This document shows, piece after piece, positions 5,653 through 13,473 of a DNA stretch of 64,000 bases; position 1 is the stretch's first letter, and each line of letters starts with the position of its first letter. The position numbers were made by a program, and so were the translations under genes. Source of the DNA: Streptomyces meridianus. Its GTDB lineage: Bacteria; Actinomycetota; Actinomycetes; Streptomycetales; Streptomycetaceae. A model generated the notes under the pieces. That model ran no database searches. It saw nothing but the letters and a program-made list of their open reading frames with translations, and was not told where the DNA came from. The DNA lies in NCBI RefSeq assembly GCF_023703325.1, contig NZ_JAMQGM010000046.1, positions 1 to 64,000 on the forward strand. Reading direction: 5' to 3'.

Positions 5653-6273
5653 TCACCCACCGGACGGCGGAGCCGCCCACCTCCGCCGTACGACGTCCTC
5701 GTGCTCCGCCTGCTCCAGTGCGAGGTCAACCCGCTCGAGCGCCTGCTCCAGGCGGGGAATCCAGTGCCGGCGAAGGGCACGCACGCGTCGACGGGTGCTC
5801 AGCACCGCGTCTCCGACGGCGCGGGCCGCGGACCGCGCAGCCGCGTACTCACCCGCCGCACGCAGCACTTCGCGGTAGGCACCCTCGGCGTGCACCAGTG
5901 CCGTGTTCCCGTAGACGGCGGTGCCGGCTGCCCGCTCCGGCACTGTGCAGGAGAACCCGGACGGATGGCGCACGCCCATCGTGGCCGACCGGCCCACGGC
6001 GACCACGGCCGGGCCGACGCCGTCCTGCGCCGCCTCCAAGGAACGCTCGCCGCCCAGTACCACTGCGCGCCTCAGCCAGGTCTCGGCCTCCGACACGCGT
6101 TCCTCCCAGGTCCGCGACGCGTCCTCGGCGGCGCGCAGCAGACGCCGGTGGTCGGCATGCAGGATGTGCAGTTTGCGCTCCAGGAGGCCGGCGCCGCGCA
6201 GGGCCGTGTCCAGGCTCCGGCGAAGGCGCAGCCGTCCGGCCCGCCCGGGCGGCACCCGGCTCTGCGCGGTCAT
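5653..6273 (-). CDS. atpD: V/A-type ATP synthase subunit D
   Basis: A 206-residue protein with two long, arginine- and alanine-rich helical stretches at the N- and C-termini, as expected for the central-shaft subunit D that forms an antiparallel coiled coil inside the A3B3 head. It starts with the family-typical basic segment (VPPGRAGRLRLRRSLDTA) and ends with RRHWIPRLEQALERVDLALEQAEHE in pieces of the same helix. It is the last gene of the nine-gene ATPase operon and its ATG overlaps the stop of subunit B by four bases. It converges on the formate dehydrogenase genes 72 bp away. Sequence similarity plus operon position make the call secure. Confidence 0.85.
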   Translation of the reverse strand: MTAQSRVPPGRAGRLRLRRSLDTALRGAGLLERKLHILHADHRRLLRAAEDASRTWEERVSEAETWLRRAVVLGGERSLEAAQDGVGPAVVAVGRSATMGVRHPSGFSCTVPERAAGTAVYGNTALVHAEGAYREVLRAAGEYAAARSAARAVGDAVLSTRRRVRALRRHWIPRLEQALERVDLALEQAEHEDVVRRRWAAPPSGG

Positions 6274-7691
6274 CCGCCGGCCTCCCGGACGCCGCCCGCG
6301 GCCGGGTCCTCACGTGCGCCGCGGGCATCGAGAAGTTCGTCGGGCAGCATGGTCAACTGGCTGCGGGGCAGGGTGAGCAGGACCCGCCAGGCACGCTCGA
6401 GGGTGTCCTCCAGCCGGCGCATGCGGTCTCGGGGCTGGTCGACGAAATCACGGAGGAATGCCTCGTCGAAGGCGAGGTAGCCGCGGTCGGCCTGGCTCAG
6501 CGCGTCCTCACCGACCAGATCTGCCAGTTCCCGCACCTGCCGCGCCCGGGCCAGGCTCGCCAGGAGCTGCGCCGCGACGGGAAGATGGTCTGCTCTGGTG
6601 CGGCCGGGCCCGGCGCCCCTGCGCATCAGGCGGGACAAGGAGGAAAGCGCGTCCACGGGCGGGTGCACTCCCAGCGCGTGCGTCCGCCGGGACAGCACGA
6701 TCTGCCCCTCCGTGATGTAGCCGGTCAGGTCGGGAACCGGATGGGTGATGTCGTACGCGGGCATGGTGAGGACGGGCAGGACCGTGACGGATCCCGGCCG
6801 TCCGCGGATCCGTCCGCACCGCTCGTAGAGCGAGGCGAGGTCGCTGTACAGGTAGCCGGGATATGCGCGGCGGGCCGGGATCTCCCCACGCTCGGCCGAC
6901 ACCTCGCGCAGCGCCTCGGCGTAACTGGTCATGTCGGTCATCACCACGAGTACGTGGCGGCCCCCGGTGAAGGCGAGGTCCTCCGCGACCGTGAGCGCGA
7001 TACGCGGGGTCAGGAGCCGTTCGATGACGGGGTCGTCCGCGGTGTTGAGCAGCAGCACCAGTTCACCTGCGGCGGACCGTTCGTCGAGTGCGTCCCGGAC
7101 GAAAGCGGCTTCCGGGTGGGTGAGCCCCATGCCTGCGAAGACGACACTGAACGCCTCGCCGCCGGCGGTCGACTGGGCGGCGATCTGCGCGGCCAACTCC
7201 AGATGGGGCAGACCTGCGGCGGAGAAGACCGGCAGTTTCTGTCCTCGCACCAGGGTCGTCAGCGCGTCGACCGCGCCGACTCCGGTGAGCACCGGTTCGG
7301 ACGGAGGCTGCCGGTGCAGGGGGTTGAGGGGGGTGCCCCCGACCGGAGCCCGGGCCCTGCCGAACACCGGTGGCCCGCCGTCGATCGGGTCGCCCCGGCC
7401 GTTGCAGACCCTGCCCAGCCACCCGGAACCGACCGGAATGTGCAACGGCTCGCCGGCGAACGCCACCCGCAGCCCGTCCGGATCCATTCCCCAGGTGTCC
7501 TCCAGGATCTGGACCAGAACGAGGTCACGGTCCACCTCCAGAACCAGACCGTGCCGCCGCTCGCCGGAGGGGAGGGTGATCCTCGCGAACTCGTCCCACC
7601 CCACGCCCGACACGCCGTCCACCACGGCCAGTGGTCCGCGCAACTCCCGCACGGCCGTGAACTCGATGTCCCCCCACACGGTCGCGCTCAC
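6270..7691 (-). CDS. atpB: V/A-type ATP synthase subunit B
   Basis: A 473-residue subunit B, the non-catalytic partner of subunit A in the hexameric head. It carries the family stretch CNGRGDPIDGGPP near residue 90, a degenerate phosphate loop (SAAGLPHLELAAQIAAQ) with no Walker lysine, as usual for B subunits, and the MTDMTSYAEALREVSAERGE segment that is diagnostic for V/A-type B chains. GTG at 7689-7691 overlaps the stop of subunit A (GTGA), and its own stop overlaps the start of subunit D, so translational coupling along the operon is likely. Confidence 0.93.
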   Translation of the reverse strand: MSATVWGDIEFTAVRELRGPLAVVDGVSGVGWDEFARITLPSGERRHGLVLEVDRDLVLVQILEDTWGMDPDGLRVAFAGEPLHIPVGSGWLGRVCNGRGDPIDGGPPVFGRARAPVGGTPLNPLHRQPPSEPVLTGVGAVDALTTLVRGQKLPVFSAAGLPHLELAAQIAAQSTAGGEAFSVVFAGMGLTHPEAAFVRDALDERSAAGELVLLLNTADDPVIERLLTPRIALTVAEDLAFTGGRHVLVVMTDMTSYAEALREVSAERGEIPARRAYPGYLYSDLASLYERCGRIRGRPGSVTVLPVLTMPAYDITHPVPDLTGYITEGQIVLSRRTHALGVHPPVDALSSLSRLMRRGAGPGRTRADHLPVAAQLLASLARARQVRELADLVGEDALSQADRGYLAFDEAFLRDFVDQPRDRMRRLEDTLERAWRVLLTLPRSQLTMLPDELLDARGAREDPAAGGVREAGG

Positions 7692-12042: not shown

Positions 12043-12961
12043 CGGACCACTCCGTCGAACCGCCGCCCCGCGCCGCTTCCTCCAGGGCTCCCCGCATACG
12101 CCAGGCGTCCGCGGAGAGCACGGCGACGGCGCCCACAACGGGGGCGGAGGTCACACCCGGCCCCCGCAGCAGGGCGCTGCCGTCTGCTTCGATCCGCTCC
12201 CACCACCGGCCCTCCGCCTGCCACAGCTGGGCCGGTTCCACGATCCCGGCCACGACCCAGTGCGCGGTGGCCGGCAGCCGGTCCCGGAAGTCCGCGAAGG
12301 TGTCTGCTGCGGTCGCACCTGCCCCGAGCAGGTCTGCCGCGCGTCCGGCCACCGGCTGGGACGGCCGACGGCCGACGACGAACATCTCGCGTGCGGCGAT
12401 CAGGGCGGCGCGGCCCGCCGCCCAGCGCAGGGCTTCGGGAACGACGGCTGCGAGCCGCGCGGCGGCGCTGATCCGCATCCCGACCGCCACGGCCGCGGGC
12501 GACGAGCCCCCCGGGTCGCCCCATGCGGAAGCCGTGAGCGCCGCTCTGAGTTGGGACGGTGAGGCCGTCTGCGACAGACGACGCCAGGCGGTGGCCAGTG
12601 AGCCGAGCCGGTAGGGCGGACGGAGGTGCTCCGGTCTGCTGCCCGACAGTGCGCGCAGGTGCTCCTCGGTGTTGGCGATCTCGAAACCCGCGGCGAACAG
12701 GCGCAGTGCCTCCGCGCCCCTGTGCGGCTGCCAGCCGGCGAGCACCCGCAGGTGCCACAGCAACGTCGCGGCGACCGCCCTCTGAGCCCCGGCCAGGGAT
12801 GCGGCGGGGTCGAGGTCACGTCGGTAGGCGGTGCGGCGCAGACGACGCAGGGCCTCCTCCAGCGAGATCGAGGACGCGACCTCGCGGAGTTCCTCGGCTC
12901 CCGCGCACCGGGTCACGACGGCCCGGGCCCGTGTGGCACCGGCGACCCACCGAGCGCTCAT
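12029..12961 (-). CDS. atpC: Probable V/A-type ATP synthase subunit C
   Basis: A 310-residue, all-helical, alanine-rich soluble protein. Length and place in the operon fit subunit C (the funnel-shaped AC39/d-type protein that joins the D-F shaft to the proteolipid ring, about 320 residues). The stretch FAAGFEIANTEEHLRALSG resembles the helix of the family that contains the 'FEI.N....LR' pattern. No catalytic motif is expected. ATG at 12959-12961 overlaps the stop of the upstream coiled-coil gene. Similarity alone would be modest; assignment leans on context. Confidence 0.7.
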   Translation of the reverse strand: MSARWVAGATRARAVVTRCAGAEELREVASSISLEEALRRLRRTAYRRDLDPAASLAGAQRAVAATLLWHLRVLAGWQPHRGAEALRLFAAGFEIANTEEHLRALSGSRPEHLRPPYRLGSLATAWRRLSQTASPSQLRAALTASAWGDPGGSSPAAVAVGMRISAAARLAAVVPEALRWAAGRAALIAAREMFVVGRRPSQPVAGRAADLLGAGATAADTFADFRDRLPATAHWVVAGIVEPAQLWQAEGRWWERIEADGSALLRGPGVTSAPVVGAVAVLSADAWRMRGALEEAARGGGSTEWSDAPR

Positions 12962-13473
12962 GGTGTGCTCCCCTCACCGGTCCCGACGCGCGTTGCGCCC
13001 TCCGTTCCGCCACGGGGTACCGCCGAGTCCGCGGAACCCCCTTCGTCGTGGTCCTCCAAGGCCATTGCCGCGATCCTGTCGACGAGAGCGGGCATTCTGG
13101 TGCTCGCCCGGTGACGAACCGTTGCTGCTTCGTGCCCGGCGGACTCGACGAGCCGCGCCGCTTCGTCCTCGGCCTCGCGGCGCATACGGGCGGCGCTCTC
13201 CTCCCGGAGCACGCCGGCGTGTTCCCGTGCCCGCAGCACCGTCTCCCGGGCCTGCTCCCGGGCCTCCTCGCGCCGGCGTCCCGCCTCGTGTGCCGCACGC
13301 TCGCGGATGTTCCGGGCCTGTTCCTCGGCCCCGGCGAGCAGGGAGAGCGGCTGCTCGAGTTCCGCCGCGAGCTCGGCGGAACGGTCGGGGGGGACGGCGG
13401 GCGGCACGCGGCCAGGAGCACCCGTGCGCCGGAAACGCATCAGGAAGTCCAGCAATCGTGGGAATCGCACCAT
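12958..13473 (-). CDS. V/A-type ATP synthase peripheral stalk subunit G/H-like coiled coil
   Basis: A 171-residue protein dominated by one long charged helix, about residues 45-125, with heptad-like EEQARNIRERAAHEAG and EEAREQARETVLRAREHAG. This is the usual look of the G/H stalk subunit that pairs with E. It is the first gene of the ATPase operon; ATG at 13471-13473 has a strong GAGGGGAG ribosome site. The proline-rich N-terminal 40 residues and acidic tail are unlike typical short G subunits (about 105-120 residues). Operon position is the strongest evidence. Confidence 0.65.
   Translation of the reverse strand: MVRFPRLLDFLMRFRRTGAPGRVPPAVPPDRSAELAAELEQPLSLLAGAEEQARNIRERAAHEAGRRREEAREQARETVLRAREHAGVLREESAARMRREAEDEAARLVESAGHEAATVRHRASTRMPALVDRIAAMALEDHDEGGSADSAVPRGGTEGATRVGTGEGSTP

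Follow-up and report, generated by a model that had tools for sequence, protein, structure and literature searches.

The V/A-type rotary ATPase of Thermus thermophilus, an H+-ATPase/synthase, and the Na+ V-ATPase of Enterococcus hirae are the closest described systems to the operon reported here. The Thermus enzyme is built from nine kinds of subunit, and the coiled coils and distal subdomain of the arm of its subunit I hold one of its two peripheral stalks. To our knowledge, descriptions of actinomycetes generally mention a single F-type ATP synthase. We analysed a window, that is, the whole stretch of 64,000 nucleotides at positions 1 to 64,000 of contig NZ_JAMQGM010000046.1, from the 5.64 Mb genome of Streptomyces meridianus. 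An original prediction had placed in this window a nine-gene V/A-type operon, lying between formate dehydrogenase (FDH) and nitrate respiration genes, and had read the whole as a low-oxygen energy module. The nine genes are there and match the nine subunit kinds of Thermus; beyond what had been predicted, subunit I is much shorter than the known ones. The compact enzyme is a structural variant of a known machine.

Among the matches listed in the open PMC literature, one report describes A/V genes in an actinomycete, namely the A/V-type ATP synthase genes of Melissospora conviva, a relative of Micromonospora; the available part of that account gives no subunit architecture, context or regulation (PMC12451618). 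Known from this description only, the enzyme is likewise an accessory A/V enzyme in an actinomycete and possibly of the same lineage. Neither a compact subunit I nor a V/A ATPase in a dormancy regulon was found among the matches listed in that literature.

Nine genes for a V/A-type rotary ATPase

The operon consists of nine intact genes on the minus strand, at 5653-13473, in the order G/H-C-I-K-F-E-A-B-D (Table 1). The overlaps follow the predicted pattern, with 4 bases at D/B, B/A, E/F, F/K, K/I and C/GH and 14 at I/C, while the A/E overlap is 4 bases with an A start at GTG 9454 and 13 with GTG 9463. A simple gene caller recovered 8/9 frames and picked an overlapping plus-strand frame instead of G/H; we accept the G/H frame because it is conserved in relatives. 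The frames of A and B are intact, with no stop within their matches.

In Pfam, D, B, A, K and I exceed their cut-offs, and F and C fall slightly under, while the places of these two genes are conserved in relatives. A catalytic A subunit with P-loop and bulge (PF16886) is present together with B, and PF00006 is matched as well. The matches to PRK04192 (631 bits, cut-off 470) and PRK04196 (588 bits, cut-off 349) exceed their cut-offs. A and B pass subfamily cut-offs and score under the stricter NCBIfam equivalog cut-offs, a pattern that fits a divergent lineage. For the E protein, Pfam gave no E-family match, and for G/H only sub-threshold coiled-coil matches. With profiles built from relatives, G/H matched Thermus subunit G (E 1.1e-5; profile positions 41-137 aligned to Thermus G 23-119, with a predicted helix at 29-145), and E matched archaeal and Thermus V-type E subunits (E 9e-5 to 7e-4). 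Since a designed helical bundle ranks first in both searches, these two assignments lean on gene position too.

Elsewhere in the genome lies an F-type operon that is complete, with genes for a, c, b, delta, alpha, gamma, beta and epsilon, as had been expected of an actinomycete; the V/A operon is therefore for a second rotary ATPase. A Pfam scan of the nine operon proteins found no F-type a (PF00119), delta/OSCP, gamma or epsilon subunit among them. At the level of sequence, it is confirmed that the nine genes specify a V/A-type rotary ATPase, second to the F-type ATP synthase.

The A subunit is homologous to that of Thermus (496 bits) and to that of E. hirae (469 bits), and the gene order, taken in the prediction to be unusual, is one that we presume to differ from the Thermus order. 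According to PMC7367684, Glu63 of the Thermus c subunit forms a salt bridge with Arg563, Gln619 and Arg622 of subunit a. The corresponding residues of the compact lineage lie, in the window, within SFARL (R384) and QALRL (Q439 and R442), and the stator arginines and the c glutamate are common to both enzymes. Among distinct relatives of at least 420 aa, the arginine motif of I was found in 100/100 and Q-x-x-R in 100/100; the glutamate motif of the c-ring is kept in all 102 of 102 distinct K proteins. In A, the P-loop is present in 94/95 and GERGxE in 95/95 relatives, and in B the motif is present in 88/94. The one A subunit in which the P-loop motif was not found belongs to L174, an operon that otherwise has nine genes; either an error in the sequence or a true loss may lie behind this.

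Some parts depart from the Thermus enzyme. Subunit F is short, and K carries an additional N-terminal hydrophobic segment; after it come a second segment, which by eye resembles a signal peptide and ends in AQA, and then one c hairpin. This A-x-A end may mark a cleavage site. In G/H, an extra conserved N-terminal segment precedes the long helix (RFRRTGAPG in the window and RFRPxGxPG in most relatives). RFR followed by P, R or A occurs in 79/84 distinct proteins, and R, F, R and PG are invariant in a 24-row alignment. The stretch falls outside the part that matches Thermus G and may anchor the stalk. Compared with E. hirae, the lineage has one c hairpin, not two, as well as a compact I, and no sodium site was recognised in it, by eye only. 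The window ATPase is probably proton-coupled.

Table 1. Features of the operon and its surroundings in the window (positions count from the first base of the 64,000)
Feature	Position	Strand	Remarks
G/H subunit (peripheral stalk)	12958..13473	-	171 aa, start ATG 13473
C subunit (rotor cap)	12029..12961	-	310 aa; PF01992 24.9 bits (cut-off 29); same place kept in relatives
I subunit (stator a-subunit), compact	10618..12042	-	474 aa; D199, R384, Q439, R442 kept
K subunit (c-ring)	10202..10621	-	139 aa; PF00137 at 76-135
F subunit, short	9978..10205	-	75 aa; PF01990 22.4 bits (cut-off 23.5)
E subunit (peripheral stalk)	9451..9981	-	176 aa; profile of relatives
A subunit (catalytic)	7688..9463	-	start 9463 or 9454; P-loop GGFGTGKT, GERGNE
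B subunit	6270..7691	-	473 aa, carries RRAYPGYLYSDL
D subunit (central shaft)	5653..6273	-	206 aa; PF01813 100.9 bits (cut-off 25.7)
Promoter-like GCGACA-N17-GACACT	13505..13533	-	upstream of G/H
CBS-CBS-BON protein, divergent neighbour	13642..14496	+	next to G/H
Formate dehydrogenase alpha	2839..5580	+	TIGR01591 752 bits (cut-off 666)
NuoE-like plus NuoF-like fusion	1148..2833	+	context
narGHJI	16559..23257	+	context, no general partner

A compact subunit I

Subunit I was called in 112 relatives whose frame was usable, and its length there is 427-541 aa, with a median of 475 and a single protein longer than 505; duplicates between two locus sets are counted, and three cut frames and the canonical locus L136 are removed. 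Start codons were picked near the expected start, which may shorten I; L136 was so cut to 488 aa and really has 662 aa from its first ATG. Independently of the start, the room from the C stop to the I stop in 109 loci is 424-625 aa (median 474), and it reaches about 510 aa or more only in L096 (625), L101 (579) and L217 (510). In L096, subunit I matches in two pieces, with either an insertion or a frame break in its 625 aa of room.

A compact-I profile made from 18 proteins scored best, at 108 bits, with the I subunit of E. hirae, and its alignment begins at residue 219 of this protein and at residue 180 of Thermus I. By profiles and gene spacing, only the proximal part of the cytosolic arm was found; the coiled coils and distal subdomain are missing, which sets the window I apart from that of Thermus. 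An AlphaFold model of the window protein has one alpha/beta lobe, with short helices replacing the long coiled coils and the distal lobe. Confidence in the model is moderate overall (mean pLDDT 72.8, pTM 0.46), with 85-94 over most of the N-terminal arm. In a structural search it matched V-ATPase a and I subunits best, with Z of about 8 to 13, a range in which a shared arrangement alone is possible and which counts as support, not proof, and often with large rmsd. Because the model is moderate and the rmsd large, the structural claim rests on the sequence profiles and the gene spacing.

If the sequence is read in this way, one peripheral stalk must either be anchored without the distal subdomain or be absent. 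We tentatively propose, while leaning somewhat against it as a whole, that the stator differs in kind: the second stalk would either be lost, which would make the V/A enzyme F-like with one stalk, or be held by the extra N-terminal segment of G/H; the self-locking through the distal subdomain that is known of free Vo could not take place in the same way; and the proton motor would be under dormancy regulation and tuned by a CBS-BON protein that senses adenylates. A natural enzyme without the distal I arm also puts to the test the number of peripheral stalks that a V/A motor requires and the way in which leakage through free Vo is prevented.

Distribution and lineage

Carriers of PF01496 (V_ATPase_I) make up 16/199 Streptomyces genomes, the window genome included; the operon is thus not a core Streptomyces gene set, as the prediction had held. 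A possible 17th carrier, G106, was set aside, as its match is under the cut-off and lies within a 1297-aa frame. Wider samples gave 11/200 carriers in the family, 12/296 in the class and 97/396 in the phylum, where all carriers listed, except the window genome, come from other classes. The genus, family and class counts, being based on Pfam, are free of bias from the compact profile, and in the class they include one canonical locus. This locus, L136 (8348-14212 in the region of G958), encodes a canonical V/A-ATPase with an I of 662 aa and a c subunit of 76 aa.

When named genomes were searched with the compact-I profile, 412 loci emerged, and the best 80 of 412 were kept; being chosen by that profile, they cannot tell the frequency of canonical enzymes. 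Compact-I loci among these best 80 come from Streptomyces, Kitasatospora, Actinacidiphila, Streptantibioticus, Mycobacterium, Mycolicibacterium, Nocardia, Rhodococcus, Saccharopolyspora, Pseudonocardia, Kutzneria, Actinoplanes, Virgisporangium, Cellulomonas, Nocardioides and Phycicoccus, and also from metagenome-assembled genomes (MAGs), including Acidimicrobiaceae and one Dormiibacterota. In 80/80 named loci, those genes that were detected follow the window order; some of the loci lack some genes or lie at a contig edge. In 20 regions of other actinobacterial classes, by comparison, A is 42-47% and B mostly 47-54% identical to the window, I, which was found in 19 of them, has 640-749 aa, and the gene orders are other ones.

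In a midpoint-rooted FastTree built on A and B joined together, with 111 sequences over 1037 columns and no Thermus, Enterococcus or archaeal sequences, a long stem parts the compact lineage from 17 canonical actinobacterial sequences. The enzymes with longer I, those of other classes as well as L136, fall outside the compact clade. Streptomycetaceae form one clade (support 0.997) except for L165 (Streptomyces sp. GC420), which joins a long-branch group with L177 and L129 inside the compact clade. All three lack the R-x-YPGY motif of the B subunit, and L165 is distant from other Streptomyces; this group may be degenerate, specialised or transferred. Nocardia and Mycobacterium mostly cluster by genus, with L191 and L213 as exceptions, and two Rhodococcus fall apart. 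Inheritance looks to have been mostly within families, with some exchange. Judged by these comparisons, the operon is accessory in Streptomyces yet part of a distinct actinomycete lineage with one gene order.

The patchy presence, together with odd relatives in which the P-loop (L174) or the B motif (6/94) is missing or I is apparently interrupted (L096), might be taken to mean that the operon is a decaying relic without function. We consider this very improbable in view of nine intact, overlapping genes, an order conserved over genera and motor residues that are kept.

Neighbouring genes and proposed role

We propose that the operon encodes a complete second rotary ATPase of V/A type, of a compact-I lineage, most likely proton-coupled, and, with fair though far from full confidence, that it is deployed in a hypoxia or dormancy response. 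When respiration stalls, the enzyme would hydrolyse ATP and hold up the proton-motive force, or it might run either way; the protein of the divergent CBS-BON gene would be a possible adenylate-sensing partner. Hydrolysis appears the likeliest direction because a second enzyme adds little as a synthase beside the F-type one. The use in dormancy or hypoxia is suggested by the genomic company and by promoter boxes of relatives. We infer the ion, the direction of work, the time of expression, the role of the CBS-BON protein and the stator architecture.

In Streptomycetaceae, the most frequent neighbour of the operon is the divergent CBS-BON gene; this gene and those for universal stress proteins accompany it more often than FDH or nar do. 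CBS domains are adenylate sensors. The CBS-BON gene is divergently adjacent in 42/57 distinct Streptomycetaceae loci versus 1/38 elsewhere, counted where 1 kb or more of upstream sequence is present; L136, loci with neither G/H nor C and loci duplicated in their I sequence are dropped, the window is excluded although it carries the gene, and distant versions may escape as the query was the window protein. A universal stress protein gene lies within the fetched 20 kb in 12/15 Streptomyces operons, where about 8% would be expected if the genes were evenly spread. Genomes carrying the operon have more universal-stress-protein domains (median 41 in 16 carriers versus 9.5 in 20 non-carriers, p 2e-6). 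Three points weaken this side of the argument: genes for stress proteins occur in clusters, which makes an expectation from even spread too simple; the 20 non-carriers, used for stress proteins and for narG alike, were picked by hand and are mostly single-contig; and the carrier versus non-carrier statistics ignore phylogeny. The choice of proton over sodium, judged by eye only, is a further weakness of the proposal.

The part of the original prediction that concerned formate dehydrogenase and nitrate respiration was supported only in part, through a tie to FDH that is not general. An FDH orthologue (at least 74% identity) is present in 8/16 carriers versus 12/183 non-carriers among the matches listed (Fisher p 2e-5), where one of the 12 (G022) is counted by a fragment and further fragments may be missed; without the window genome, 7/15 carriers have it (p 1e-4). 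It lies on the V/A contig within about 36 kb in 7/8 of these carriers and on another contig in G150. For narG, at E 1e-200 or better, there is no clear enrichment (8/16 carriers versus 6/20 non-carriers), and nar is not supported as a general partner. In the fetched flanks, some of which end at contig ends, FDH was found in 4/80 named loci and 1/36 others, and nar in 1/80 and 0/36. That named locus, from Rhodococcus rhodnii (L185), has narK and narGHJI upstream of the V/A operon in its fetched flank, a window-like arrangement in another family.

These data bear on a second possibility, namely that the enzyme is a low-oxygen ATP synthase, which would work together with FDH and nitrate respiration and be driven by a small proton-motive force. 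Thermus V/A enzymes do make ATP, the FDH orthologue is both enriched and linked, nar stands beside the operon in the window and in R. rhodnii, and nar, FDH and V/A share one contig in G097. However, narG was not found at that threshold in 8/16 carriers, 8/16 carriers are without the FDH orthologue, and an F-type synthase is already present. Moreover, the window FDH has N-terminal 2Fe-2S and ferredoxin domains and directly follows a NuoE/NuoF-like fusion; because of this neighbour it looks soluble and NAD-linked, not a membrane respiratory FDH, and it would thus itself build no proton gradient. We regard this synthase as unlikely to be the general function; a formate/nitrate synthase module is possible in strains carrying those genes.

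Promoters and OsdR/DosR-type boxes

The second line of evidence for a dormancy or hypoxia role comes from upstream of G/H. With a matrix built from ten OsdR sites given in PMC5069765, a box of at least 12 bits was found between -150 and -50 of G/H in 28/54 distinct Streptomycetaceae regions, the window being among the 54. Controls gave 1.2% of random 100-base windows of the same loci and 1/2160 first-order shuffles. The exact published OsdR consensus occurs at -111 in L092, and a half-site spacer of N4 matches 28/84 distinct regions, compared with 5-14 for ten other spacers. Outside Streptomycetaceae, a box of at least 10 bits was found in 5/30 regions (L129, L134, L178, L203 and L212; controls, 0.85% of random windows and 6/1200 shuffles). 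The OsdR/DevR (DosR) regulons, as described in PMC5069765, have a like type of box and like neighbours (universal stress proteins, nitroreductase, narG2); the main text of that paper uses neither the word ATPase nor the term ATP synthase.

Several results speak against placing the ATPase under such a box. The window intergenic region is without a good OsdR box, its best match (9.5 bits) lying inside the CBS-BON gene. No 12-bit box was found in 26/54 Streptomycetaceae promoters and no 10-bit box in 25/30 others, and box-like matches across the 64 kb window are at chance (14 versus 12, 17 and 21 simulated). Where the box does occur in Streptomycetaceae, it tracks the CBS-BON gene (29/39 regions with the gene versus 1/14 without) and is often closer to this gene than to G/H; in Streptomyces, it may serve CBS-BON alone, or both genes. 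Across the genome, a loose box pattern is uninformative, with 747 matches per strand versus 1602 for the backward control. Two other candidates in the window promoter, GGGCC-N6-GGCC at -144 and GGCC-N5-GGCC near -95, were rejected for their wrong spacing.

It is also conceivable that the OsdR box of Streptomyces acts on the CBS-BON gene alone, and that the ATPase runs from its own promoter under another signal. The box and the CBS-BON gene are lost together, and some close relatives of the window that are without the box (L085, L138, L140, L144 and L151) still have a promoter-like GCGACA-N17-GACACT. This element is present in 24/54 distinct Streptomycetaceae upstream regions, including the window, and in 0/54 reversed or opposite-strand controls; the pattern was derived from these same sequences, and the count is descriptive. 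On the other side, the 5/30 boxes (at least 10 bits) outside Streptomycetaceae lie upstream of the ATPase itself where no adjacent CBS-BON gene was found, adjacency being uncheckable in L129, which has only 354 bases upstream. On balance we think this division of control somewhat unlikely, if a serious competitor.

In another alternative, the enzyme would serve pH homeostasis as a pump under acid stress, with the dormancy neighbourhood incidental. A pH-homeostasis role has been proposed for V-type operons acquired by Thaumarchaeota (cited in PMC10656485); a dedicated hydrolytic pump would suit an accessory enzyme, and some relatives, such as palsa MAGs and Pseudonocardia acidicola, have names suggestive of peat or acid habitats. 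The promoter boxes and the company of universal stress protein and CBS-BON genes point instead to OsdR/DosR-like control, and we find the acid-stress pump improbable.

A hypoxia or dormancy role remains our preferred reading. It suggests that some Streptomyces and other actinomycetes keep a spare proton motor for energy-starved or oxygen-poor times. Conserved and often found in a dormancy-type neighbourhood, such a second rotary ATPase is relevant to the question of how the proton gradient is kept up in non-growing actinomycetes; the same is asked of mycobacteria, and relatives of the operon occur in genomes named Mycobacterium, Mycolicibacterium and Nocardia.

Two further places in the window carry strong OsdR-type boxes, at 24251-24266 (16.5 bits) and 25671-25686 (13.9 bits), before genes for universal stress proteins and Acg-type nitroreductase (NF047509); the window in this way contains part of a dormancy-type gene island. 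Apart from these subjects, the window encodes at 39353-41758 an 801-aa protein with a C-terminal CbbX/SpoVK/EccA-like AAA domain.

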